Below are positions 4,906-52,695 of a stretch of 64,000 nt of DNA, one piece after another. The notes beneath the pieces were generated by a model, which ran no database searches, was not told the DNA's origin, and was given only the letters and a program-made list of their open reading frames with translations. Source of the stretch: Malus domestica (Eukaryota; Streptophyta; Magnoliopsida; Rosales; Rosaceae); the NCBI RefSeq assembly GCF_042453785.1, contig NC_091673.1, forward strand, positions 14,479,501 through 14,543,500. The letters run 5' to 3'. The stretch's first letter is position 1, and every line of letters starts with the position of its first letter. Both the position numbers and the translations under genes were made by a program.

Positions 4906-5172
4906 CAGAGTAGAGAACTCCACTGGTGCTTTAACAGTTGGATAAACGCTTACCTGCATGTAGCAGAAACAATTAAGAGAGCCAGCAAAAAAAAAATAAT
5001 ACAAGTATATATGAGATAAATACAACAAGAATACTCCTCTTATGGCCTATCCCTGGGTTCCTGTAACGACCTAGACCATGAGAGGTGAATTAGAGGAAGC
5101 AAAACTTACAGATTTTGGATCCGAATCCGATGACATTCCAGACAATGAAGCTCCAACAATCTTGAACAACAC
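4906..5172 (-). pseudogene. AP5M: 3' exons of a broken AP-5 complex mu subunit gene (AP5M)
   Basis: Two short minus-strand exons are visible. The first, 5172-5110, encodes VLFKIVGASLSGMSSDSDPK plus Ser; it follows a TATAG acceptor and ends at GTAAGT. The second, 4953-4906, encodes VSVYPTVKAPVEFSTL after a TGCAG acceptor, then meets a GTGGGT donor. Together they match the C-terminal part of the plant AP-5 mu adaptin, a medium chain of an endosomal coat complex (recalled, not searched). The rest of the gene lies at 18031-19318. Between the parts is the LINE insertion, and the exon that should join them is missing. The final exon is also absent. If the GTGGGT site is read through, the frame stays open to 4783 with an unrelated tail. 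Confidence 0.7.
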
Positions 5173-5265
5173 CTATACACGTGAGTCAGAAAACGCCATC
5201 CTCTGTTAAAGCTTGGTCTTCAATAAATGCTTAAACACTTTAAAGTCCAAAAGTGTGCTTGACTA

Positions 5266-5891
5266 CAACAACAACAACAACAACAACAAAGCCTTTTCCC
5301 ACTAAGTGGGGTCGGCTATATGAATCCTAGAACGCCATTGCGCTCGGTTTTGTGTCATGTCCTCCGTTAGATCCAAGTACTCTAAGTCTTTTCTTAGAGT
5401 CTCTTCCAAAGTTTTCCTAGGTCTTCCTCTACCCCTTCGGCCCTGAACCTCTGTCCCGTAGTCACATCTTCGAACCGGAGCGTCAGTCGGCCTTCTTTGC
5501 ACATGTCCAAATCACCGGAGCTGATTTTCTCTCATCTTTCCTACAATTTCGGCTACTTCTACTTTACCTCGGATATCCTCATTCCCAATCTTATCCTTTC
5601 TCGTGTGCCCACACATCCCACAAAGCATCCTCATCTCTGCTACACCCATTTTGTGTACGTGTTGATGTTTCACCGCCCAACATTCTGTGCCATACAACAT
5701 CGCTGGCCTTATTGCCGTCCTATAAAATTTTCCCTTGAGCTTCAGTGGCCTACGACGGTCACACAACACGCCGGATGCACTCTTACACTTCATCCATCCA
5801 GCTCGTATTCTATGGTTGAGATCTCCATCTAATTCTCCGTTCTCTTGCAAGATAGATCCTAGGTAGCGAAAACGGTCGCTTTTTGTGATCT
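5266..5891 (-). pseudogene. LINE 3'-end fragment with (TTG)n tail, copy 1
   Basis: The minus-strand protein reads from [20 protein letters not shown] to the C-terminus, where RTE elements have [20 protein letters not shown], then a 3' end with CCCACTTAGTGGGAAAAGGC and the TTG repeat. One early stop and changes such as [11 protein letters not shown] are seen. The fragment begins abruptly at about 5891, inside the RT C-terminal region, exactly as in copy 2. Confidence 0.75.
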
Positions 5892-5925
5892 TCGCTAGAT
5901 TGCTCCGGTCATTAGTGTGGATAAG

Positions 5926-5935
5926 TATATAAATG
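5926..5935 (+). promoter_or_regulatory. TATA-like motif at the cargo start, copy 1
   Basis: TATATAAATG stands about 35 bases inside the cargo; the equivalent in copy 2 is at 13233-13240. It faces the coiled-coil ORF. Promoter function is inference. Confidence 0.4.
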
Positions 5936-7259
5936 GATAGAGATAGGAAAGCAAACACAAGATGTACGTGGTTCACCCAGATTGGCTACGTCCACGGAAT
6001 AGAAGAGTTCTCATTAATTGTGAAGGGTTTACACAAGTACATAGGTTCAAGCTCTCATTTAGTGAGTACAAGTGAATGATTTAGTACAAATGACATTAGG
6101 AAATATTGTGGGAGAATGATCTCGTAATCACGAAACTTCTAAGTATCGGAGTGTGGTGTCGTCTTGACTTGCCTTATCTGTCTCATAGGTAGATGTGGCA
6201 TCTTCTCTGGAAGTACTCTTCCTCCATCCAGGGGTGGTATCTTTAACTGGTGGAGATGCACAAGGTAATGTATCAATTTCACTTGAAGCTTACTTGTAGT
6301 TTCAAGCTTGGTCAAGCGCGATACAAACCATGTAGTAGGAGTCCCCCAAGTCGCCGAGCTAGGGGGTCTGCTGAAAGAGGTGACAGACAAGGTAAGCAAT
6401 CAGAGCTCCGACTGATTGTTCACCTTCTCCCCATCTTGCAGCAGCATGAAGGATAAAGAGAAGAAAAATGAGAAAAGATGATATGAGATACTTTTGCTTT
6501 TGAAGAAGTAACTTTCCACAGGCTTATTCTTGAACTGAGCTGGAGGGTTTTCTGGTTTCCTACAGAGTATAAGGCCGACTGAAGAATTTGAGGGTCAAAA
6601 CAAGTCCATCAAATCTAGAGTACGTTCTACCCTGCTGATATGGGATACTTTTGCTTTTGACAGAGTAATGGATGTATCGGCACGTGTGCTGTTACGCTTG
6701 TCTCCACATGCTTCCTTGTATCCTTCGCACTTGCCCTATCTGTTCCTCAAGCAGATGCGGAATCTTCCTTGGAAACATAAGATGTTGAAGATGAGTACTC
6801 GAGAGCAATGCCAGGTAAGTAATCAGGTAAGGGGTTCCAGGCAGTCAGTTCCTGGCTGGAAGCTTGATTCCAAGTGCTGACTGATTGCTCTCTTTCTCCT
6901 TGTCTTGCAGGTAAAAACAAGGCCAAAGGAAAAGACAGGGAAAAAGCATGATATGGGATACTCTTGCTTTTAACCCTGATGATATGAGATATTCTTGCTC
7001 TAGTATAGCTTGTTTGCAGAGGTATTATCGGGGGGAAAGAAAGCTGAATATTTCGAAAGGCTTCGTTGGGAGTGCCCTCTTAGATATGATGAAGGGTTGA
7101 GCATTTTTGCAGGTCTGCCTGTCCGTTGGGGATGGAGGTCGACATATATAGGAGTCTCCCTAACAACAAGTAGTAATGCTATTCATTTACCCTGCTTGGT
7201 CATAGCACAGTAGTGGGAGCTGCCAGTTTCACATGTTTTAACTCTGTCAGAGCACTTTG

Positions 7260-9260
7260 AAAAAGTGGTCTGTGGTATCTGGCTCTCGAGATTCGGAGAA
7301 CGATGTCTCTTCGATTTTTGAGAAAGCAATCATGCTGGGGGTCTGGCTCTCGAGATTCAGAGAGCAGTGTCTCTTCGATTTTTGAGGAAGTAATCATGTT
7401 GGGAGTCTGGCTCTTGAGATTCGGAGGGCGGTGCCTCTTCGATTTTGGAGCAAGCAATCATGTTGGGAGTGTTGTCTCGAATGTGAGTAAAGGTTGGGCA
7501 TGTTTGCTAGTCTACCTTGCCACGAAGCACAAAGGTTGACACACAGGGACTTTCCAATTATCTAGCAATGGTACTGTTCCTTTACCCTCTCTTCGCTTTT
7601 GAGAAAGTAGTCATGTTGGGAGTCTGGCTCTCGAGATTCGGAGGACGGTGCCTCTTCGATTTTGGAGCAAGCAATCTTGTTGGGAGTGTTTTCTCGAATG
7701 TGAGTAAAGGTTGGGCATGTTTGCTAGTCTACCTTGCCACGAAGCACAGAGGTTGACACACAGGAACTTTCCAATTATCCAGCAATGGTACTGTTCCTTT
7801 ACCCTTGTGGGTAATAATATGGTAGCTAGACCTTCAAAATTTATGTGTCTAAACTTTGTTAGTGCTGTTTCTTTGCTATTCTTTTACCTTTCTTGGTCAG
7901 AGCGATGTAGTGGGAGCTGCAAGCTTCACGTGCTCAACTTTGGCAGAGAACTTTGGCAAAGTTATCTGTGGTACCCATGAGCTATTGTTGCGTGTGGGAA
8001 GTGGGTGGTTGAACAGTAAGATTCATGTGCTTTCTACTTCACCAGATGTCTTCGACAGAATGCCCATAATTTCTGCAAAGCTGAGTGTGCGTGTGACAGG
8101 TGCTGACAAGGCTAGAATAGTAGGTGCCTCTTCGATTTCTAAGATCGGCCCTCGTGGTCTCTGAGCAGCCCAGCTTTTGAGAAAGCGAGCGCCTCTTCGA
8201 TTGATTCGGAGAACGATGCCTTATCGATTTTTGAGAAAGCAATCATGCTGGGGGTCTGGCTCTTGAAGATTCGGGGAGCAGTGTCTCTTCGATTTTTGAG
8301 AAAGTAATCATGTTGGGAGTCTGGCTCTCGAGATTCGGAGGACGGTGCCTCTTCGATTTTGGAGCAAGCAATCTTGTTGGGAGTGTTTTCTCAAATGTGA
8401 GTAAAGGTTGGGCATGTTTGCTAGTCTACCTTGCCACGAAGCACAGAGGTTGACACACAAGGACTTTCCAATTATCCAGCAATGGTACTGTTCCTTTACC
8501 CTCTCTTCGATTTTTAAGAAAGTAGTCATGTTGGGAGTCTGGCTCTCGAGATTCGGAGGACGGTGCCTCTTCGATTTTGGAGCAAGCAATCTTATTGGGA
8601 GTGTTTTCTCGAATGTGAGTAAAGGTTGGGCATGTTTGCTAGTCTACCTTGCCACGAAGCACAGAGGTTGACACACAGGGACTTTCCAATTATCCAGCAG
8701 TGGTACTGTTCCTTTACCCTTGTGGGTAATAATATGGTAGCTAGACCTTCAAAATTTATGGGTCTAAACTTTGTTAGTGCTGTTTCTTTGCTATTCTTTT
8801 ACCCTTCTTGGTCAGAGCGATGTAGTGGGAGCTGCAAGCTTCACGTGCTCAACTTTGGCAGAGAACTTTGGCAAAGTTATCTGTGGTACCCATGAGCTAT
8901 TGTTGCGTGTGGGAAGTGGGTGATTGAACAGTAAGATTCATGTGTTTTCTACTTCCCCAGAAGTCTTCGACAGAATGCCCATAATTTCCGCAAAGCTGAG
9001 TGTGCGTGTGACAGGTGTTGACAAGGCTGGAAAAGTAGGTGCCTCTTCGATTTCTGAGATCGGCCCTCGTGGTCTCTGGGGAGCCCAGCTTTTGAGAAAG
9101 CGAGCGCCTCTTCGATTTCTGAGATCGACCTTCGTGGTCTTTGAGCAGCCCAACTTTTGAGAAAGCAAACGCCTCTTCGATTTCTGAGATCAACCCTCGT
9201 GATCTCTAAGCAGCCCAGCTTTTGAGAAAGCAAACGCCTCTTCGATTTCTGAGCAGGCGC
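7260..9260. repeat. Nested tandem repeats in the cargo, copy 1
   Basis: Three levels are visible. A unit of about 215 bp (CTCTTCGATTTT...GTTGGGAGTCTGGCTCTCGAGATTCGG...) recurs at about 7400-7800 and 8320-8720. A block of about 915 bp, 7540-8160 versus 8455-9075, holds these plus GTGGGTAATAATATGGTAGC. A unit of about 66 bp, CCTCTTCGATTTCTGAGATCG...CAGCCCAGCTTTTGAGAAAGC, is repeated at 9040-9255. Confidence 0.8.
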
Positions 9261-9294
9261 CACTTCGATTTCTGAAGCTCCGTCGAGTGCAGAT

Positions 9295-9304
9295 TTTTAT
9301 AGGG
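9295..9304 (+). promoter_or_regulatory. TATA-like box before the cargo ORF, copy 1
   Basis: TTTTTATAGG lies about 115 bases before the ATG, after the end of the repeats and before a pyrimidine-rich leader. The same sequence precedes the ORF in copy 2 near 16139-16148. Confidence 0.4.
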
Positions 9305-9414
9305 GCTGGCATTAAGTTCCAAAGCACACTTGAATCTCCACCAGTAGAAGCTTCATTCTTGCACTTCTAAGATCTTGATTTGTCCGACCTCTTCTCTCTT
9401 CAACACCTTTGAAA

Positions 9415-10089
9415 ATGTCTGGCCCCTCCGACCGTCGTTTTGACTTGAACCTTGTTGAAGAGGCAGCCCCGCCTTCTCCAGACAACATATGGCGCCCATC
9501 CTTCGTCTCCCCGACTGGTCCTCTTACCGTTGGGGATTCCGTGATGAAGAATGATATGACCGCTGCGGTGGTAGCCAGGAACCTTCTCACTCCCAAAGAT
9601 AACAGACTAATTTCCAAACGGTCTGATGAGTTAGCTGTTAAGGATTCGCTGGCTCTCAGTGTTCAGTGTGCAGGTTCTGTGTCTAATATGGCCCAACGCC
9701 TATTTGCTCGAACCCGCCAAGTTGAATCATTGGCGGCTGAAGTGATGAGTCTCAAACAGGAGATTAGAGGGCTCAAGCATGAGAATAAACAGTTGCACCG
9801 GCTCGCACATGACTATGCTACAAACATGAAGAGGAAGCTTGACCAGATGAAGGAAACTGATGGTCAGGTTTTACTTGATCATCAGAGATTTGTGGGTTTG
9901 TTCCAAAGGCATTTATTGCCTTCGTCTTCTGGGGCTGTACCGCGTAATGAAGCTCCGAATGATCAACCTCTGATGCCTCATCCTTCTAGGGTTCTGTCCA
10001 GTACTGAGGCTCCAAATGATCCCCCTCCGGTGCCTTCTCTTTCTGGGGCTCTACCGACTGCTGAGACTTCTCCTAAGCAACCTTTGTGA
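9415..10089 (+). CDS. Coiled-coil protein of unknown function carried by the LINE cargo, copy 1
   Basis: The intact 224-residue frame starts at ATG 9415. An N-terminal SDRRFDLNLVEEAAPPSP segment contains an EAR-like FDLNL. A central heptad-rich helix (about residues 95-150, VESLAAEVMSLKQEIRGLKH onward) is expected to form a coiled coil. The C-terminus is Pro/Ser-rich with two NDxPxxP-type repeats. No enzyme or nucleic-acid-binding motif is seen. A polyadenylation signal follows at 10157. Copy 2 differs at ten residues and neither has a stop. I recall similar predicted proteins in rosaceous genomes but know no function. It lies antisense to the LINE that flanks it and could be part of a non-autonomous element. 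Confidence 0.6.
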   Translation: MSGPSDRRFDLNLVEEAAPPSPDNIWRPSFVSPTGPLTVGDSVMKNDMTAAVVARNLLTPKDNRLISKRSDELAVKDSLALSVQCAGSVSNMAQRLFARTRQVESLAAEVMSLKQEIRGLKHENKQLHRLAHDYATNMKRKLDQMKETDGQVLLDHQRFVGLFQRHLLPSSSGAVPRNEAPNDQPLMPHPSRVLSSTEAPNDPPPVPSLSGALPTAETSPKQPL

Positions 10090-10156
10090 AGGCTCCCTCT
10101 TGTGTGTTTATTTTGACTCATGTATATGTACATATTTGTAGCTTATCGGGAATATC

Positions 10157-10162
10157 AATAAA
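10157..10162 (+). terminator. Polyadenylation signal after the cargo ORF, copy 1
   Basis: AATAAA lies 68 bases past the stop codon, within CAATAAATAAGC. It is conserved in copy 2 at 17004-17009. Confidence 0.5.
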
Positions 10163-10349
10163 TAAGCTTTCCTTCATTTCAACGTATTGTGTTAAATACA
10201 CCAAAGCCTTCTTCGCTAAGTTCTTTGAATTTTCTTTTGTTGAAGCTTGTATGTTGAAGCTTTCTGAGTGGAGCATGTAGGTTGGGGTAGTGTTCCCTTA
10301 ATTTCCCGAGTGAGGAAAACTTCTCGGTTGGAGACTTGGAAAATCCAAG

Positions 10350-12572
10350 TCACTGAGTGGGATCGGCTATATGAATCTTAGAACGCCATTGTGCTCGATC
10401 CTGAGTCATGTCCTTCGTTAGATCCAAGTACTCTAAGTCTTTTCTTAGAGTCTCTTCCAAAGTTTTCCTAGGTCTTCCTCTGCCCCTTCGGCCCTGAACC
10501 TCTGTCCCATAGTCGCATCTTCTAATCGGAGCGTCAGTAGGCCTTCTTTGCACATGTCCAAACCACCGTAACCGATTTTCTCTCATCTTTCCTTCAATTT
10601 CGGCTACTCCTACTTTACCCCGGATATCCTCATTCCTAATCTTATCCTTTCTCGTGTGCCCACACATCCAACGAAGCATCCTCATCTCCGCTACACCCAT
10701 TTTGTGTACGTGTTGATGTTTCACCGCCCAACATTCTGTGCCATACAGCATCGCCGGCCTTATTGCCGTCCTATAAAATTTTCCCTTGAGCTTCAGTGGC
10801 ATACGGCGGTCACACAACACGCCGGATGCACTCTTCCACTTCATCCATCTAGCTTGTATTCTGTGGTTGAGATCTCCATCTAATTCTCCGTTCTTTTGCA
10901 AGATAGATCCTAGGTAACGAAAACGGTCGCTCTTTGGTATTTCTTGATCTCCGATCCTCACCCCTAACTCGTTTTGGCCTCCATTTGCACTGAACTTGCA
11001 CTCCATATATTCTGTCTTTGATCGGCTTAGGCGAAGACCTTTAGATTCCAACACTTCTCTCCAAAGGTTAAGCTTTGCATTTACCCCTTCCTGAGTTTCA
11101 TCTATCAACACTATATCGTCTGCAAAAAGCATACACCAAGGAATATCATCTTGAATATGTCCTGTTAACTCATCCATTACCAACGCAAAAAGGTAAGGAC
11201 TTAAGGATGAGCCTTGATGTAATCCTACAGTTATGGGAAAGCTTTCGGTTTGTCCTTCATGAGTTCTTACGGCAGTCTTTGCTCCTTCATACATATCCTT
11301 TATAGCTTGGATATATGCTACTCGTACTCCTTTCTTCTCTAAAATCCTCCAAAGAATGTCTCTTGGGACCCTATCATACGCTTTTTCCAAATCTATAAAG
11401 ACCATGTGTAAATCCTTTTTCCCATCTCTATATCTTTCCATCAATCTTCGTAAGAGATAGATTGCCTCCATGGTTGAGCGCCCTGGCATGAACCCGAATT
11501 GGTTGTCGGAAACCCGTGTCTCTTGCCTCAATCTATGCTCAATGACTCTCTCCCAGAGCTTCATTGTATGACTCATTAGCTTAATACCCCTATAGTTCAT
11601 GCAATTTTGTACGTCGCCCTTATTCTTGTAGATAGGCACCAAAGTGCTCGTTCGCCACTCATTTGGCATCTTCTTCGTTTTCAAAATCCTATTGAAAAGG
11701 TCAGTGAGCCATGTTATACCTGTCTCTCCCAAAAGTTTCCACACTTCGATTGGTATATTGTCTGGGCCTATTGCTTTTTTATGCTTCATCTTCTTCAAAG
11801 CTACAACCACTTCTTCCTTCCGGATTCGACGATAAAAAGAGTAGTTTCTACACTCTTCTGAGTTACTCAACTCCCCTAAAGAAGCACTCATTTCATGTCC
11901 TTCATTGAAAAGATTATGAAAATAACCTCTCCATCTGTCTTTAATCGCGTTCTCTGTAGCAAGAACCTTTCCATCCTCATCCTTGATGCACCTCACTTGG
12001 TTTAGGTCCCTTGTCTTCTTTTCCCTTGCTCTAGATAGTTTATAGATATCCAACTCTCCTTCTTTGGTATCTAGTCGTTTATACATATCGTCGTAAGCCG
12101 CTAACTTAGCTTCTCTGACAGCTTTCTTCGCCTCTTGCTTCGCTTTTCTATACCTTTCACCATTTTCATCGGTCATCTCCTTGTATAAGGCTTTACAACA
12201 TTCCTTCTTAGCCTTCACCTTTGTTTGTACCTCCTCATTCCACCACCAAGATTCCTTTTGGTGTGGGGCAAAGCCCTTGGACTCTCCTAATACCTCTTTT
12301 GCTACTTTTCGGATACAACTAGCCATGGAATCCCACATTTGGCTAGCTTCCCCCTCTCTATCCCACACACATTGGGTGATTACCTTCTCTTTGAAAATGA
12401 CTTGTTTTTCTTCTTTTAGATTCCACCATCTAGTCCTTGGGCACTTCCAAGTCTTGTTCTTTTGTCTTACTCTTTTGATATGTACATCCATCACCAACAA
12501 GCGATGTTGATTAGCCACGCTCTCTCCTGGTATAACTTTGCAATCCTTACAAGTTATACGATCCCCTTTCCT
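10350..12572 (-). pseudogene. RTE-type LINE reverse transcriptase, 5'-truncated but open
   Basis: About 740 codons are open on the minus strand. They start in the last part of the APE endonuclease ([20 protein letters not shown]), followed by a linker and a full RT domain. RT landmarks are [49 protein letters not shown] and FADD at 11115-11126 (catalytic Asp pair). The C-terminal zone ends [22 protein letters not shown] makes cDNA at the nicked target. The first codons of the longest frame are only the neighbouring TTG tail. No stop interrupts the RT, so the insertion looks young, but loss of the endonuclease makes it inactive on its own. Confidence 0.88.
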
Positions 12573-13210
12573 CAACAACAACAACAACAACAACAACAAA
12601 GCCTTTTCCCACTAAGTGGGGTCGGCTATATGAATCCTAGAACGCCATTGCGCTCGGTTTTGTGTCATGTCCTCCGTTAGATCCAAGTACTCAAGTCTTT
12701 TCTTAGGGTCTCTTCCAAAGTTTTCCTAGGTCTTCCTCTACCCCTTCGGCCCTGAACCTCTGTCCCGTAGTCACATTTTCGAACCGGAGCGTCAGTAGGC
12801 CTTCTTTGCACATGTCCAAACCACCGGAACCGATTTTCTCTCATATTTCCTTCAATTTTGGCTACTCCTACTTTACCTCGGATAACCTCATTCCCAATCT
12901 TATCCTTTCTCGTGTGCCCATACATCCCACGAAGCATCCTCATCTCCGCTACACCCATTTTGTGTACGTTGATGCTTCACTGCCCAACATTCTGTGCCAT
13001 ACAACATCGCTGGCCTTATTGCCGTCCTATAAAATTTTCCCTTGAACTTCAGTGGCCTACGACGGTCACACAACACGCCGGATGCACTCTTACACTTCAT
13101 CCATCCAGCTTGTATTCTATGGTTGAGATCTCCATCTAATTCTCCGTTCTCTTGCAAGATAGATCCTAGGTAGCGAAAACGGTCACTTTTTGTGATCTTC
13201 GCTAGATTGC
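12573..13210 (-). pseudogene. LINE 3'-end fragment with (TTG)n tail, copy 2
   Basis: Equivalent of 5266-5891 with the same abrupt start at [10 protein letters not shown]. It is frameshifted (the text around 12960 drops three bases of the HQHVHK segment and one base elsewhere) and so is non-functional. Confidence 0.7.
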
Positions 13211-13232
13211 TCCGGTCATTAGTGTGGATAAG

Positions 13233-13240
13233 TATATAAA
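13233..13240 (+). promoter_or_regulatory. TATA-like motif at the cargo start, copy 2
   Basis: TATATAAA at the same relative place as in copy 1. Function is inferred only. Confidence 0.35.
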
Positions 13241-13254
13241 TGGATAGAGATAGG

Positions 13255-13430
13255 AAAGCAAACACAAGATGTACGTGGTTCACCCAGATTGGCTACGTCC
13301 ACGGAATAGAGGAGTTCTCATTAATTGTGAAGGGTTTACACAAAAGCAAACACAAGATGTACGTGGTTCACCCAGATTGGCTACGTCCACGGAATAGAGG
13401 AGTTCTCATTAATTGTGAAGGGTTTACACA
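13255..13430. repeat. 88-bp tandem duplication near the cargo start, copy 2 only
   Basis: The segment AAAGCAAACACAAGATGTAC... through GAAGGGTTTACACAA occurs at 13255 and again at 13343. Copy 1 has it once, at 5948-6035, so the duplication arose after the copies separated. Confidence 0.85.
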
Positions 13431-14749
13431 AGTACATAGGTTCAAGCTCTCCTTTAATGAGTACAAGTGAATGATTTAGTACAAATGACATTAGGAAATA
13501 TTGTGGGAGAATGATCTCGTAGCCACGAAACTTCTAAGTACCGGATTGTGGTATCGTCTTGACTTGCCTTATCTGTCTCATAGGTAGATGTGGCATCTTC
13601 TCTGGAAGTACTCTTCCTCCATCCAGGGGTGGTATCTGTAACTGGTGGAGATGCACAAGGTAATGTATCAATTTCACTTGAAGCTTACTTGTAGTTTCAT
13701 GCTTGGTCAAGCGCGATACAAACCATGTAGTAGGAGTCCCCCAAGTCGCCGAGCTAGGGGATCTGCTGAAAGAGGTGACAGACAAGGTAAGCAATCAGAG
13801 CTCCGGCTGATTGTTCACATTCTCCCTATCTTGCAGGCAGCATGAAGGATAAAGAGAAGAAAAATGAGAAAAGATGATATGGGATACTTTTGCTTTTGAA
13901 GAAGTAACTTTCCACAGGCTTATTCTTGAACTGGGCTGGAGGGTTTTCTGGTTTCCTCCAGAGTATAAGGCCGACTGAAGAATTTGAGGGTCAAAACAAG
14001 TCCATCAAATCTAGAGTACGTTCGACCCTGCTGATATGGGATACTTTTGCTTTTGACAGAGTAGTGGATGAATCGACACGTGTGCTGTTACACTTGTCTC
14101 CACATGCTTCATTGTATCCTTCTCACTTGCCCTATTTGTTCCTCAGGCAGATGCGGTATCTTCCCTGCAAGCATAAGATTTTGAAGATGAGTACTCGAGA
14201 GCAATGCCAGGTAAGTAATCAGGTAAGGGGTTCCAGGCAGTCAGTTCCTGGCTGGAAGCTTGATTCCAAGTGCTGACTGATTGCTCTCTTTCTCCTTGTC
14301 TTGCAGGTAAGAACAAGGCCAAAGGAAAAGACAGGGAAAAAGCACGATATGGGATACTCTTGCTTTTAACCCTGATGATATGAGATATTCTTGCTCTAGT
14401 ATAGCTTGTTTACAGAGGTATTATCGGGGGGAAAGAAAGCTGAATATTTCGAAAGGCTTCGTTGGGAGTGCCCTCTCAGATAAGAGAAAGGGTTGAGCAT
14501 TTTTGCAGGTCTGCCTGTCCGTTAGGGATGGAGGTCGACATATATAGGAGTCTCCCTAACATCAAGTAATAATGCTATTCTTTTACCCTGCTTGGTTATA
14601 GCACGGTAGTGGGAGCTGCCAGCTTCACATGTTTTAACCCTGTCAGAGCACTTTGAAAAAGTGGTCTGTGGTATCTGGAAAGCTGATGTTGCGTGTGAAG
14701 ATTACAGACAAGCTTTATCCAAGGAGATCCAGCTCTTGAAGTTGGGAAA

Positions 14750-16110
14750 GTGGTGCCTCTTCGATTTTCGAACAAGCAATCCTGTCGGGGATCTGGCTCT
14801 CGAGATTCGGAGAACGATGCCTCTTCGATTTTTGAGAAAGCAATCCTGCTGGGGGTCTGGCTCTCGAGATTCGGAGAGCGGTGTCTCTTCGATTTTTGAG
14901 AAAGTAATCATGTTGGGAGTCTGGCTCTCGAGATTCGGAGGGCGGTGCCTCTTCGATTTTGGAGCAAGCAATCTTGTTGGGAGTGTTTTCTCGAATGTGA
15001 GTAAAGGTTGGACGTGTTTGCTAGTCTACCTTGCCACGAAGCACAGAGGTTGACACACAGGGACTTTCCAATTATCCAGCAGTGGTATTGTTCCTTTACC
15101 CTCTCTTCGATTTTTGAGAAAGTAATCATGTTGGGAGTCTGGCTCTCGAGATTCGGAAGGCGGTGCCTCTTCGATTTTGGAGCAAGCAATCTTGTTGGGA
15201 GTGTTTTCTCGAATGTGAGTAAAGGTTGGGCATGTTTGCTAGTCTACCTTGCCACGAAACACAAAGGTTGACACACAGGGACTTTCCAATTATCCAGCAG
15301 TGGTACTGTTCCTTTACCCTCTCTTCGATTTTTGAGAAAGTAATCATGTTGGGAGTCTGGCTCTCGAGATTCGGAGGGCGGTGCCTCTGGCTCTCGAGAT
15401 TCGAAGGGCGGTGTCTCTTCGATTTTGGAGCAAGCAATCTTGTTGGGAGTGTTTTCTCGAATGTGAGTACAGGTTGGGCATGTTTGCTAGTCTACCTTGC
15501 CACGAAGCACAGAGGTTGACACACCGGGACTTTCCAATTATCCAGCAGTGGTACTGTTCCTTTACCCTTGTGGGTAATAATATGGTAGCTAGACCTTCAA
15601 AATTTATGTGTTTAAACTTTGTTAGTGTTGTTTCTTTGCAATTCTTTTACCCTTCTTGGTCAGAGCGATGTAGTGGGAGCTGCAAGCTTCACGTGTCTCA
15701 ACTTTGTCAGAGAACTTTGGCAAAGTTATCTGTGGTACCCATGAGCTACTGTTGCGTGTGGGAAGTGGGTGATTGAACAGTACGATTCATGTGCTTTCTA
15801 CTTCGTCAGAAATTTTCGACAGAATGCCCATAGTTTCCGCAAAGCTGAGTGTGCGTGTGACAGGTGCTGACAAGGCTGGAAAAGTAGGTGCCTCTTCGAT
15901 TTCTGAGATCGGCCCTCGTGGTCTCTGAGCATCCCAGCTTTTGAGAAAGCAAGCCTCTTCGATTTCTGAGATCGGCCTTCGTGGTCTTTGAGCAGCCCAG
16001 CTTTTGAGAAAGCAAACGCCTCTTCGATTTCTGAGATCGACCCTCGTGGTCTCTAAGCAGCCCAGCTTTTGAGAAAGCAAACGCCTCTTCGATTTCTGAG
16101 CAGGCGCCTC
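14750..16110. repeat. Nested tandem repeats in the cargo, copy 2
   Basis: Same unit families as in copy 1 in a different arrangement. Three units of about 215 bp lie in series (14900-15560), with a partial internal duplication of CTCTGGCTCTCGAGATTCG at 15385-15410. The run of about 66-bp CTCTTCGATTTCTGAGATCG units lies at 15890-16100. The large 915-bp duplication of copy 1 is absent, which accounts for the length difference. Confidence 0.8.
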
Positions 16111-16261
16111 TTCGATTTCTGAAGCTTCGTCGAGTGCAGATTTTTATAGGGGCTGACATTAAGTTCCAAAGCACACTTGAATATCCACCAGTAGAAGCTC
16201 CATTCTTGCACTTCTAAGATCTTGATTTGTCCGACCTCTTCTCTCTTCAACACCTTTGAAA

Positions 16262-16936
16262 ATGTCTGGCCCCTCCGACCGTCGTTTTGACTTGAACCTT
16301 GTTGAAGAGGCAGCCCCGCCTTCTCCAGACAACATATGGCGCCCATCCTTCATCTCCCCTACTGGTCCTCTTACCGTTAGGGATTCCGTGATGAAGAATG
16401 ATATGACTGCTGCGGAAGTGGCCAGGAACCTTCTCACTCCCAAAGATAACAGACTACTTTCCAAACGGTCTGATGAGTTGGCTGTTAAGGATTCTCTGGC
16501 TCTCAGTGTTCAGTGTGCAGGTTCTGTGTCTAATATGGCCCAACGCCTATTTGCTCGAACCCGCCAAGTTGAATCATTGGTGGCTGAAGTGATGAGTCTC
16601 AAACAGGAGATTAGAGGGCTCAAGCATGAGAATAAACAGTTGCACCGGCTCGCACATGACTATGCTACAAACATGAAGAGGAAGCTTGACCAGATGAAGG
16701 AATCTGATGGTCAGGTTTTACTTGATCATCAGAGATTTGTGGGTTTGTTCCAAAGGCATTTATTGCCTTCGTCTTCTGGGGCTGTACCGCGTAATGAAGC
16801 TCCAAATGATCAACCTCTGATGCCTCCTCCTTCTAGGGTTTTGTCCAGTACTGAGACTCCGAATGATCCTCCTCCGGTGCCTTCTCTTTCTGGGGCTCTA
16901 CCGCCTGCTGAGACTTCTCCTAAGCAACATTTGTGA
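16262..16936 (+). CDS. Coiled-coil protein of unknown function carried by the LINE cargo, copy 2
   Basis: Intact 224-residue paralogue of the 9415-10089 protein, with ten amino-acid differences (for example V to I, G to R and V to E in the N-terminal third; the DLNL motif and coiled coil are kept). Silent changes are about as frequent as replacements, which given site numbers hints at mild constraint but is too few to prove it. It has the same upstream TATA-like motif, pyrimidine-rich leader and downstream AATAAA. Function unknown. Confidence 0.6.
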   Translation: MSGPSDRRFDLNLVEEAAPPSPDNIWRPSFISPTGPLTVRDSVMKNDMTAAEVARNLLTPKDNRLLSKRSDELAVKDSLALSVQCAGSVSNMAQRLFARTRQVESLVAEVMSLKQEIRGLKHENKQLHRLAHDYATNMKRKLDQMKESDGQVLLDHQRFVGLFQRHLLPSSSGAVPRNEAPNDQPLMPPPSRVLSSTETPNDPPPVPSLSGALPPAETSPKQHL

Positions 16937-17003
16937 TGGCTCCCTCTTGTTTGTTTATTTTGACTCAAGTATATGTACATATTTGTAACATATCGGGGAT
17001 ATC

Positions 17004-17009
17004 AATAAA
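17004..17009 (+). terminator. Polyadenylation signal after the cargo ORF, copy 2
   Basis: AATAAA 68 bases after the stop codon, as in copy 1. Confidence 0.5.
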
Positions 17010-17196
17010 TAAGCTTTCCTTCATTTCAACGTATATTGTTAAATACACCAAAGCCTTCTTCGCTAAGTTCTTTGAATTTTCTTTTGTTGAAGCTTGTATG
17101 TTGAAGCTTTGTGAGTGGAGCATATAGGTTGAGGTAGTGTTCCCTTAATTTCTCGAGTGAGGAAAACTTCTTGGTTGGAGACTTGGAAAATCCAAG

Positions 17197-18030
17197 TCAC
17201 TGAGTGGGATCGGCTATATGAATCTTAGAGCGCCATTGTGTTCTGTCCTGTGTCATGTCCTCCGTTAGATCCAAGTACTCTAAGTCTTTTCTTAGGGTCT
17301 CTTCCAAAGTTTTCCTAGGTCTTCCTCTGCCCCTTCGGCCCTGAACCTCTGTCCCATAGTCGCATCTTCTAATCGGAGCGTCAGTAGGCCTTCTTTGCAC
17401 ATGTCCAAACCACCGTAACCGATTTTCTCTCATCTTTCCTTCAATTTCGGCTACTCCTACTTTACCCCGGATATCCTCATTCCTAATCTTATCCTTTCTC
17501 GTGTGCCCACACATCCAACGAAGCATCCTCATCTCCGCTACACCCATTTTGTGTACGTGTTGATGCTTCACCGCCCAACATTCTGTGCCATACAGCATCG
17601 CCGGCCTTATTGCCGTCCTATAAAATTTTCCCTTGAGCTTCAGTGGCATACGGCGGTCACACAACACGCCGGATGCACTCTTCCACTTCATCCATCCAGC
17701 TTGTATTCTATGGTTGAGATCTCCATCTAATTCTCCGTTCTTTTGCAAGATAGATCCTAGGTAACGAAAACGGTCGCTCTTTGGTATTTCTTGATCTCCG
17801 ATCCTCACCCCTAACTCGTTTTGGCCTCCATTTGCACTGAACTTGCACTCCATATATTCTGTCTTTGATCGGCTTAGGCGAAGACCTTTAGATTCCAACA
17901 CTTCTCTCCAAAGGTTAAGCTTTGCATTTACCCCTTCCTGAGTTTCATCTATCAACACTATATCGTCTGCGAAAAGCATACACCAAGGAATATCACCTTG
18001 AATATGTCCTGTTAACTCATCCATTACCAA
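17197..18030 (-). pseudogene. 5'-truncated LINE RT fragment fused in frame to AP5M
   Basis: The LINE sequence enters at [22 protein letters not shown], just before the catalytic FADD, and runs open to the LINE C-terminus. The reading frame is continuous with AP5M coding sequence upstream (18717-18031), so one 506-codon frame joins about 229 adaptin residues to about 277 LINE residues. The RT lacks its N-terminal motifs and cannot work. Confidence 0.85.
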
Positions 18031-19318
18031 ATCAGCTGGATGAAGATCCTTGCTCATTTTTTCCGTTAAGAACTCATCTACATTTACCATATTATTATTG
18101 TTACCATCTGTCTCAATATCGCTATCTTCATCAGCTATGGTTCCAAAGGCTGAACTAGAGATAGGTGATTTTTGAGGTTTCCATGGTGCAAACTGGACTT
18201 TCCCAGGGAAAATTGCCTCAATACTTTTGGTGAGGGCCCTCCCACCCGTGACAATCTTCCATACCACAGAATGGTCTGTAGTGGATACCAATCCAACCGA
18301 TGGAGTGCCATCAAAAGATACTACCCTTCTTGTCGGAAAAGGCATAGTCACAGTACAAAACTCCATAGCGAGAGGCGACTTGTATCCATCCATTAGTTGC
18401 AATTTGAATAAGAAATCACCTTTGTCTTCAGAGACCACAGACAACTGATAAAATCCTTCTATGGGTGGTCCAAGACCACAGACTGCTTGGTAACGCATTA
18501 GAACAAAATTACCTAACGGGGGTGAAAACATCACAGCTTGCTTATCAACACCTTGTTCTGGAACTTGAGCACAAGGATGAAATGATAAAACTTCAATGTG
18601 ATCTGCGTTCAACCCTATTAAGGGGAAGGACACATCAGGCAATCCTTCTAAATCTGCTCGGCAATTTATTTGGCCAGAAATTGATAAACTATCTGGAATC
18701 TCGTCTTGGTCATACAAAGCAGCATGGACAGTCTCATGAACTGAGTATTCTCGGCCTTCCTTTGTATAGGCAAGGCTTCCAAGCTGGTTGCTTCAGGTCC
18801 GCAAGAGGAAGATCTGACGAAGAAAAGCCATTAACCCAAATGGAAAGAATATTGGGGAAGCTCAAATCCAATGGTGTTCCTATATGTACCAGTACAATCA
18901 GCAAGCATATGAGACACTAAACCAGCACCAGGCCAAGGCAAAGGTGAACCACTAAATTGTCAATAGTGATAATGATAGTAAAGAAATCCCGAGATGAGAA
19001 ATACCATAGTAAAAAGTACCAACCAAATGGCATTGAACTAGTTATGAAAGTTCGGAGAGCATCTTTATCTAAAGGCCTAGAACCGGTCTTGTGAGCATCC
19101 GATGTAACAGTTCCTGTTGCTGCAATGCCGGAAGGGGATGAGGATGCAACTGGTGCAGCTACAGGTTTCGCCCTTGAGGAGATGCTTGATATTCCTATGC
19201 TGGCGGTTTGTGAGTTTAACAATCCTCGGACAGATGGGGATGCACTTACGAACACTTCAGGTTCCACCACATCACCAGTTATTAAGTCACCAATAGCATG
19301 TGCCATGCCACCATAAAA
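18031..19318 (-). pseudogene. AP5M: Main part of a broken AP-5 complex mu subunit gene (AP5M)
   Basis: Minus-strand exons are recalled as plant AP-5 mu. Exon 19318-19024 carries HAIGDLITGDVVEPEV through DALRTFITSSMPFG. After an intron, exon 18879-18031 carries TPLDL... and, from 18717, [20 protein letters not shown] through [16 protein letters not shown]. It belongs to the mu-homology domain that binds cargo in AP-5, an endosomal coat adaptor. Defects: a 5-bp tandem duplication TGCCATGCCA at 19301-19310 shifts the frame, about five bases are missing near 18741-18746 (TGA soon follows), the first exons are not seen, and the LINE cuts the gene after PADL. The 3' exons lie at 4906-5172. An intact paralogue is likely elsewhere, since the plant lineage keeps this gene. 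Confidence 0.75.
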
Positions 19319-50573: not shown

Positions 50574-52695
50574 TAGGCCTGGCAAACGGGTCGTGTTTGT
50601 CGTGTTCGTGTCGTTTTTGTATAACACATGTTATCTTAACGGGTCATGTCGTGTCACACCTGTTATCTTAATAGGTTCTTAATAGATCGGGTCACTTTAC
50701 CCAACGGGTAAAGTGACCCGACCCGTTATAAGGGTAAAGTGTCCCAATCCGTTATAACCCGTTATGACTTGTTAAAAAAATTATATTTTTTTCTTAAATT
50801 TCCACATACCACACTTTGCCACATAAATATTACTTCAAAACATTAAAACATATAATTTAATATATATATATATATATATATAATTATTTTAGTTTTTAGG
50901 AGTATAAAAATGTTAAATTAATGTATATAATTATTATAGTTTATTCATACTCATTAAGTATAACATAAGATTTTGTGGTATCTACTAGTGTAATTTTTTT
51001 AATTGAAGATCGAATTCATTCATTGTATTCATATAGGGTCTAGGAGTGTAGCTGTAAAGAATCATCAAAATCGGAGTTAAAATAACCGTTAAATCATGAT
51101 TTTTCTTTTTATAACCGTCGAAAGGTTTTATCTCGTTACTTGATCTCTATATGTTTGTTTTTTGCAATTTTTGGTGTATGCAATCTCGAAGTATATACAA
51201 ACATGTTTAACAGTTGGATCGTTGAAACTAGTTTTGTAGAATGCGTATCCCATCAAAATAATAGATTCACTAACACTTAGGAGTTTATTCATACTTTCAT
51301 TAAGTATAACAAGATTTTGTGGTATCCACTAGTGTAAATATTTTAAACTGAAGATCGAATTCATTCATCGTATTCATATAAGGTCAATGAGTGTAGTTGT
51401 AAAAATCATCAAAATCGGAGTTAAAATAACCGTTAAATCATGATTTTTCTTTTTATAACCATCGAAAAGTTTTGTCCCGTTACTTGATCTCTGAATGTTT
51501 GTTTTTTGTAATTTTTGGTGTATGCGATTTCGAAGTATATACAAACATGTTTGACGGTTGGATCGTTGAAACTAGTTTTGTAGAATGCGTATCCCATCAA
51601 AACAATATATTCACTAACAATTAAGAGTTTATTTATACTTTCATTAAGTATAACATAAGATTTATTATATCCACTAGTATAAATATTTTAAATTGAATAT
51701 CGAATTCATTCATTATATTCATATAGGGTCAAGGAGTGTAGCTGTAAAGAATCATCAAAATCGAAGTTAAAATAACCGTTAAATCGTCATTTTTCTTTTT
51801 ATAACCGTCAAAAAGTTTTGTTTCGTTACTTGATCTCTGAATGTTTGTTTTTGCAATTTTTGGCGTATGCGATCTTGAAGTATATACAAACATGTTTGAC
51901 GGTTGGATCGTTGAAACTTGTTTCGTAGAATGCGTATCCCATAAAAAAAAAAGATTCATTAACACTTAAGAGTGTATTCATACTTTCATTAAGTATAACA
52001 TAAGATATCCACTAGTGTAAATATTTTAAATTGAATATCAAATTCATTCATTGTATTCATATAGGGTCAAGGAGTGTAGTTGTAAAAAATCATAAAAATC
52101 GGAGTTAAAATAACAATTAAATCGTGATTTTTCGTTTTGTAACCGTTGAAAAGTTTTGTTCGGTTACTTGATCTCTGAATGTTTGTTTTTTGCTATTTTT
52201 TAATGATGCAATCTCGAAGCATATACAAACAAGTTTGACGGTTGGATCGTTGAAATTAGTTTCGTATAATTCATATCCCATCAAGTTTAATGGTGTATAT
52301 ATATATATATATATTAAGTAGATTTAAATCTATTTATTATGTACGTATAATTATTATAGTTTTTAGGGGTATAAAATTTAATTTAAAATTATATATATAA
52401 TTATTATAGTTAATATTTTGGGGTATAATTATTATAGTATATATAATTATTATAATTATTATAGTTAATTTAATATATATATATAATTATAGTAATTTTT
52501 AGGGTTATAAAATTATAAAATTAGTATTCTGCTTATCGTGTATCGTGTTATCCACGTGTATATCCGAACCAACTCGTTATCTTAACATATGCTTATCGGA
52601 TTACTTGATAACGATCCGATTCGTTATCGTATCGACCCGTACACCTATTAATTTTGTGTTGAGTTATCGAATCGTGTCAAGAATTGTCAGGCCTA
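50574..52695. mobile_element. Non-autonomous hAT element (2122 bp)
   Basis: Ends are TAGGCCTGGCAA and, inverted, TAGGCCTGACAA. Flanks are ACCGTAAG (50566-50573) and ACTGTAAG (52696-52703), an 8-bp duplication with one change. Subterminal text has the CGGGTCGTG/CGTGTTCGTG and GACCCGTTA words usual in this hAT group. No transposase frame; the middle is filled by four long repeats. Confidence 0.85.
50930..52290. repeat. Four tandem copies of a ~340-bp unit inside the hAT element
   Basis: Units start with a TTTATTCATACTTTCATTAA-like phrase at about 50939, 51287, 51628 and 51975 and end near TGCGTATCCCATCAA. Each contains AAAATAACCGTTAAATC, GATCTCTGAATGTTTG and ACGGTTGGATCGTTGAAA. Copies are about 85-95% alike by eye. 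Confidence 0.85.

Follow-up and report, generated by a model that had tools for sequence, protein, structure and literature searches.

The 64-kb window analysed here lies on contig 13 of the 651-Mb, 19-contig genome of apple (Malus domestica; NC_091673.1, positions 14,479,501 to 14,543,500) and holds two units, A and B, placed head-to-tail on the minus strand, the strand of all unit features unless stated. With little room for doubt, both are copies of a long interspersed nuclear element (LINE) of the RTE type, about 8.3 kb long, that carries sequence of a long terminal repeat (LTR) retrotransposon as cargo together with the tail of a second RTE, and that is copied as one piece. Copies of this composite elsewhere in the genome are independent insertions, each made by target-primed reverse transcription.

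Architecture of the two units

Self-BLAST and reading of the sequence give units A and B a common order: an RTE-type LINE body, a cargo of about 4 kb, the last ~600 bp of an RTE, and (TTG)n. Both internal junctions are identical between the two units. These features had been reported by the first-pass annotation and are borne out. The RTE tail of unit A has 93.7% identity to the last 586 bp of the body itself. These 586-bp repeats were considered as candidate LTRs and rejected, being RTE reverse transcriptase (RT) sequence with differing ends. The 5' end of unit A abuts the TTG tail of unit B with a TG overlap. Differences between A and B amount to 12 of 826 positions in the body (1.5%), 19 of 594 in the tail, and 56 of 1547 and 46 of 1361 in two stretches of the cargo (about 3.4% for cargo and tail). 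A tandem duplication of 913 bp (7290-9128) lies in the cargo of unit A and is absent from unit B. Other short tandem repeats of the cargo also differ in copy number between the units.

Genomic copies and insertion signatures

The genome was searched with a 1001-bp probe lying wholly inside the cargo (window 8000-9000), so that LINE parts were not selected for. The search scored 40 of 2822 first-look candidates and copy counts are accordingly lower bounds. It listed 42 matches, of which 40 are full-length (the window and at least 39 others at 99%, on 15 of the 19 contigs) and 2 partial. Ten kb around 20 of the 39 other copies were fetched. The RTE tail and TTG stand at the same place in all 20; cargo continues into the RTE body in 16, with only about 25 bp of body in L012, and the 5' end lies inside the cargo in the remaining 4. 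One exact 5' start base is common to 5 copies of 8.1-8.3 kb, and two further copies start at bases 33 and 55 of the full length. The 913-bp duplication is present in all 20 fetched copies, a count biased by a probe that spans it and favours copies having it.

Exact target-site duplications (TSDs) of 12-20 bp flank 8 of the 20 fetched copies, including all 5 with the common 5' end; among mismatched flank pairs of different copies, 0 of 380 reach 8 bp. The flanks compared (1 kb on the 5' side, ~0.5 kb on the 3' side) show no similarity between loci or to the element, the one match, of 99 bp, being between both flanks of a single locus. Since the flanks of different copies are unrelated, the copies are not products of segmental duplication, for which the first-pass annotation had named long identical flanks as the sign. 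Its proposal of a composite moved as one unit by target-primed reverse transcription, to be checked on genomic copies of the cargo, is supported by the tails, the series of varied 5' ends, the TSDs and the independent flanks. It had also read the two units as truncated at different 5' points; this agrees with the genomic copies, whereas the 18030 end of unit B is not a simple truncation, 304 bp of host sequence being missing there. The suggestion that the TTG tail attracts new insertions found no further case: the pair in the window is the only one, and none of the 20 other copies has an element in its 1-kb 5' flank.

The (TTG)n 3' end of the 20 copies and both window units, the 5' truncation series and the TSDs agree with the RTE clade, a placement presumed from the tail and the general features of the family. 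RTE-clade LINEs end in (TTG)n or (TTGATG)n according to PMC3747384. The termini of the composite are not those of an LTR retrotransposon or a large retrotransposon derivative, which would have two directly repeated LTRs with TG...CA ends and a TSD of 4-6 bp. The composite instead starts with the 5' end of a LINE, finishes in (TTG)n and has TSDs of 12-20 bp, and no long direct repeats other than RTE sequence stand at its sides.

Three loci have peculiar arrangements. L027 joins a cargo fragment (oriented 1434-1955) to the body at element position 767 (from 1953 on), as by template jumping or rearrangement. L025 holds two composites in opposite orientation within 10 kb. Among the matches listed, five to a cargo edge follow one another on one strand of C4:7264165-7392376 in ~32-kb steps, resembling a tandem segmental duplication.

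Cargo identity and junctions

A pattern built on the right edge of the cargo and excluding the young RTE continuation matched 200 times; of the 100 matches listed, a few are young composites with a small indel. Thirteen right-edge loci were read (6 + 7), picked to include less common endings. Six (L029, L030, L031, L033, L034 and L043) are composites whose RTE tail is longer. The LTR end reads GTGCATCAACA in L032 and L041 and is followed there by TTTGGCGCCGTCTGTGG, a primer-site-like stretch; we take TGGCGCC to be the mark of a Gypsy-type primer site. In L039, L040, L042 and L045 the LTR end CATCAACA gives way to unrelated DNA without RTE, and L044 is a diverged relative. The terminal CA, the primer-site-like stretch after CATCAACA in two loci and plain DNA in four agree with a Gypsy-type LTR origin, and the right end of the cargo, in the LINE orientation, can be assigned as an LTR end. 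No LTR start was found for the cargo, of which LTR proper may be all or only part. Viral contigs, plasmids and phages, also searched, held no matches.

The cargo relatives bear on another point of the first-pass annotation, which had counted cargo copies with termini of their own against its proposal. LTR copies ending in CATCAACA without RTE do exist, but they are diverged relatives: L039, L040 and L045 are LTRs with ~290 bp extra at one point, and similarity stops after 125-242 bp in L032, L041 and L042. In L029 and L043 RTE sequence directly follows a complete LTR end, the arrangement that insertion of an LTR element into an RTE would leave. L032 is adjoined by a parental-type copy in inverted orientation. 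It matches most of the cargo piecewise at 85-90% identity and continues past the left junction.

At the position of the body-cargo junction this parental-type copy reads CACGACCCACTCAGTGACTTGG, without RTE, and the RTE 3' end reads GCCGACCCCACTTAGTGGG. The join lies inside ~12 nt of microhomology, the composite reading through the shared stretch. The TAG of the RTE has become CAG at the join and the RT frame ends at a TGA supplied from the LTR side. When folded, the RTE end forms a CCCAC/GTGGG hairpin, which is missing from the body. Because this hairpin is cut at the junction, a transcript would have to extend across the cargo as far as the RTE tail beyond it, on which the body, deprived of its own 3' end, would depend. 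The body-cargo junction was also considered as the LTR's own TG start and rejected, since the parental-type sequence continues upstream of it.

Generations and order of insertion

The 20 young copies differ by 0.3-1.0% from their own majority. Unit A lies at 0.53% from it and unit B at 2.95%, with 3.35% between A and B, so that unit A resembles the copies of other chromosomes more than it does the adjacent unit B. Unit A belongs to the young burst and unit B stands outside it, on which basis A most likely inserted later into the tail of an older B.

The cargo-tail junction was met in three forms. A complete LTR end is followed by RTE from element position 2406 in L029 and L043; RTE starts at 2456 in L030, L031, L033 and L034, and at ~2677 in both window units as well as the 20 young copies. 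These forms may have arisen stepwise in that order. Two older composites read at length differ by 5.3-5.5% from the young majority, one of them having a gapped body from position 68. Their divergence indicates that the fusion predates the recent burst.

The RT reading frame

A 1057-codon endonuclease-RT frame is open in 4 of the 7 full- or near-full-length copies, where an SVA-like element would have no RT of its own; the other 3 have in-frame stops. One such 1057-aa frame, scanned against Pfam, gave hits to Exo_endo_phos (1.8e-9) and RVT_1 (5.7e-36), in keeping with the apurinic-type endonuclease and RT that RTE-clade LINEs encode in one frame. The bodies of A and B differ by 8 synonymous and 4 nonsynonymous codons (p = 0.005). 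RT variants were further collected from 16 copies besides unit B. Those seen in one copy only number 107 (45 synonymous, 55 nonsynonymous, 7 stop), whereas mutation as observed in other cargo sequence would give 27.4% synonymous (p = 0.0008). The true RT frame gave the lowest value of the six frames, only the mirror frame, which has the same codon positions, falling also below 0.05, and no frame of the non-coding cargo did so. This pattern of substitutions suggests that RT was under selection in the source copies.

Proposed mechanism

We favour the following scenario. The mobile form would be ~8.3 kb long and comprise a 5' leader, the endonuclease-RT frame, ~4.5 kb of LTR-retrotransposon sequence where the 3' end would normally follow, and then the 3' end of a second RTE plus (TTG)n. 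Its transcript would run across the cargo as far as this second RTE tail, to which the RT encoded by the element would bind, mobilising the transcript in cis. Target-primed reverse transcription from that point would leave the 3' end fixed and the 5' end truncated to varying extents, with TSDs of 12-20 bp. As for its birth, an LTR element sitting inside an RTE copy could have given rise to an RNA carrying LTR plus RTE tail, which an RT template switch (or DNA recombination) at the ~12 nt of shared sequence could have joined to another, almost complete RTE. The LTR-RTE boundary would then have been shed stepwise in later versions, the shortest being amplified most recently.

Alternative explanations

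Several observations weigh against the reading of the units as copies of one self-mobilised composite. Flank repeats reach only 0-5 bp in 12 of the 20 fetched copies. RT variants found in at least two copies show no synonymous excess (4 synonymous and 8 nonsynonymous of 12; p = 0.43). The lower A/B divergence of the body relative to cargo and tail could also be obtained by gene conversion. The probe favours young, cargo-bearing copies and under-samples RTEs without cargo and cargo without RTE. The shared RT variants are also what would be expected if the composite were a non-autonomous passenger moved only in trans by the RT of other RTEs, like a giant short interspersed nuclear element (SINE) or SVA. 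Three of the 7 full- or near-full-length copies have the same structure in spite of RT stops, and the 3' tail alone could recruit RT, to judge from the RTE-tailed SINEs of PMC3747384. We nevertheless find a passenger moved only in trans unlikely, given the 1057-codon frames open in the other 4 copies and the synonymous excess in single-copy variants and between A and B, which suggests selection on the composite's own RT.

Other explanations concern the pair of units or the cargo. Adjacency, head-to-tail orientation and identical internal junctions could result from a local tandem duplication in which one insertion was doubled in place, and the loss of 304 bp of host sequence at 18030 implies that B may once have been longer. 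The distances of A and B from the dispersed young majority (0.53% and 2.95%) and from each other (3.35%) largely refute such a duplication, and the 913-bp repeat shared by A with all 20 fetched copies and not with B also speaks against it; we regard it as very improbable. Entry of A and B in a single event of end-to-end template jumping would account for the TG overlap where A's 5' end abuts B's TTG tail, and L027 provides a case of a cargo fragment joined to a body start. It is improbable in view of the same difference in distance from the young majority, to be read with B's own subfamily lying outside the sample, and of the 913-bp duplication found only in A. Practically no credence is left for a cargo that is a separate LTR element with LINE parts as chance nested neighbours. 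LTR copies with their own end and no RTE exist, but chance nesting is refuted for the young family by the RTE tail of all 20 copies, by the body present in all 16 that reach the other junction, and by the TSDs; a pattern for the left cargo edge without RTE, by design blind to more than half of unrelated continuations, had a single match, and this copy is 5'-truncated at that point.

An antisense frame in the cargo

The cargo holds a 236-codon open frame on the strand opposite to the LINE. It is open, without indels, in 20 of the 21 copies spanning it (window units counted), L027 having a stop; the start motif is altered in L018. It is also open in 1 of the 2 older composites. No Pfam family was found for it, and the matches in Pfam and PDB are weak and mostly to coiled coils. 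Single-copy variants include 21 synonymous of 52 (27.1% expected, p = 0.026) and the true frame is lowest of the six, a lean that is not significant once corrected for six frames. Shared variants comprise 4 synonymous of 8. Comparison with the two older composites gives 15 synonymous, 20 nonsynonymous and 1 stop, and 11 synonymous and 17 nonsynonymous, respectively; comparison with the parental-type pieces gives 13 synonymous, 36 nonsynonymous and 2 stop, which is neutral. Selection on the antisense frame stays unproven. It is doubtful, though conceivable, that the composite represents an autonomous LINE lineage reorganised by the LTR fusion into a two-gene bidirectional element, its cargo being kept across several forms of the family for its function as the source of a useful coiled-coil protein or of an LTR promoter driving antisense transcription.

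The host gene and other features of the window

The units interrupt an AP-5 mu-like gene (Table 1) with matches of 94% identity on C16 and C12. The C16 copy has 304 bp between both junctions that the window lacks, made up, from reading of the splice site, of 39 bp of exon and 265 bp of intron. Relative to the C16 copy, the gene of the window thus lacks the final 39 bp of the exon together with the splice donor and 265 intronic bp. The 18030 end of unit B is a deletion junction, formed at insertion or later. Elsewhere in the window, tandem repeats with a unit near 345 bp occupy 50938-52284.

Table 1. Coordinates of the composite units, the antisense frames and the interrupted host gene in the window.
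Feature	Position	Strand	Evidence or remark
Host gene resumes: intron end and next exon	5101..5264	-	Uninterrupted relative on C16
Unit A 3' tail, (TTG)n	5265..5289	-	Same 3' end in 20/20 fetched copies
RTE 3' end, ~600 bp, closing unit A, terminal hairpin CCCACTTAGTGGG	5290..5886	-	Self-BLAST, fold
Unit A cargo, LTR-retrotransposon sequence with internal tandem repeats and 913-bp duplication	5887..10350	-	Edges uncertain by ~12 bp
Antisense 236-codon open frame, unit A (ATG at 9415, 224 aa)	9379..10089	+	Opposite strand to LINE
Unit A RTE body (RT, 5'-truncated)	10351..12572	-	Pfam RVT_1 3e-36; stop codon 10352-10350, from cargo side
Unit B 3' tail, (TTG)9	12573..12599	-	Unit A starts directly beyond
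RTE 3' end closing unit B	12600..13196	-	Self-BLAST
Unit B cargo, without 913-bp duplication, older copy	13197..17197	-	Self-BLAST, divergence
Antisense open frame, unit B	16226..16936	+	Opposite strand to LINE
Unit B RTE body, 3' part of RT	17198..18030	-	Stop codon 17199-17197; self-BLAST, Pfam
Host exon of AP-5 mu-like gene, cut at insertion	18031..18792	-	Pfam Adap_comp_sub 4.6e-24; PDB AP5M1 match 6.8e-7

Significance and relation to known systems

The composite is an RTE-type LINE that has an RT of its own and has acquired both LTR-retrotransposon sequence and the tail of a second RTE. The titles and abstracts listed by literature searches, with Repbase outside them, included none on an LTR-carrying RTE. 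The family offers a multi-generation case of a LINE whose 3' region was replaced by a piece of another retrotransposon class, with an RT frame kept while the element amplified. It shows that RTE machinery is able to copy an 8.3-kb template to full length and that the 3'-end signal of a LINE can be re-supplied from downstream, and its stepwise junctions offer a test of how LINEs acquire new 3' ends. The composite also crosses the classes of transposable element annotation, in which copies of the cargo may be called LTR elements and the RTE ends scattered fragments.

Mobilisation of foreign sequence via an RTE 3' end with (TTG)n is shared with the tobacco TS SINE, as presented in PMC3747384; the TS SINE described there is short and tRNA-derived, whereas the composite is 8.3 kb long and has RT. 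Like HODOR (KX869746), which PMC6901071 and PMC8558331 describe as an LTR element of high copy number in apple and pear, the cargo is high-copy LTR sequence of the same plant group, and HODOR is a conceivable source of it. Among plant RTE-clade LINEs, RTE-1_Mad of apple is named in PMC9033089. With this group of LINEs the composite has in common the single endonuclease-RT frame, the (TTG)n tail, 5' truncation and TSDs. It differs from them by the ~4.5 kb of LTR sequence and the second RTE 3' end that follow the RT frame, by the absence of the native 3' hairpin, and by an RT stop codon that comes from the LTR side.

The SVA and LAVA elements of apes are multi-element composites with retrovirus-derived sequence and tandem repeats, devoid of RT and mobilised by LINEs. 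The apple composite is likewise built from several elements and moved by LINE machinery, but its endonuclease-RT frame is open in several copies. LINE 3' transduction, known for L1, takes downstream sequence to a new site by means of a read-through RNA. In contrast to the sequence transduced by L1, the piece carried by the apple composite terminates in the tail of another LINE, has been retained through several forms of the family and stands in place of the element's own 3' end.

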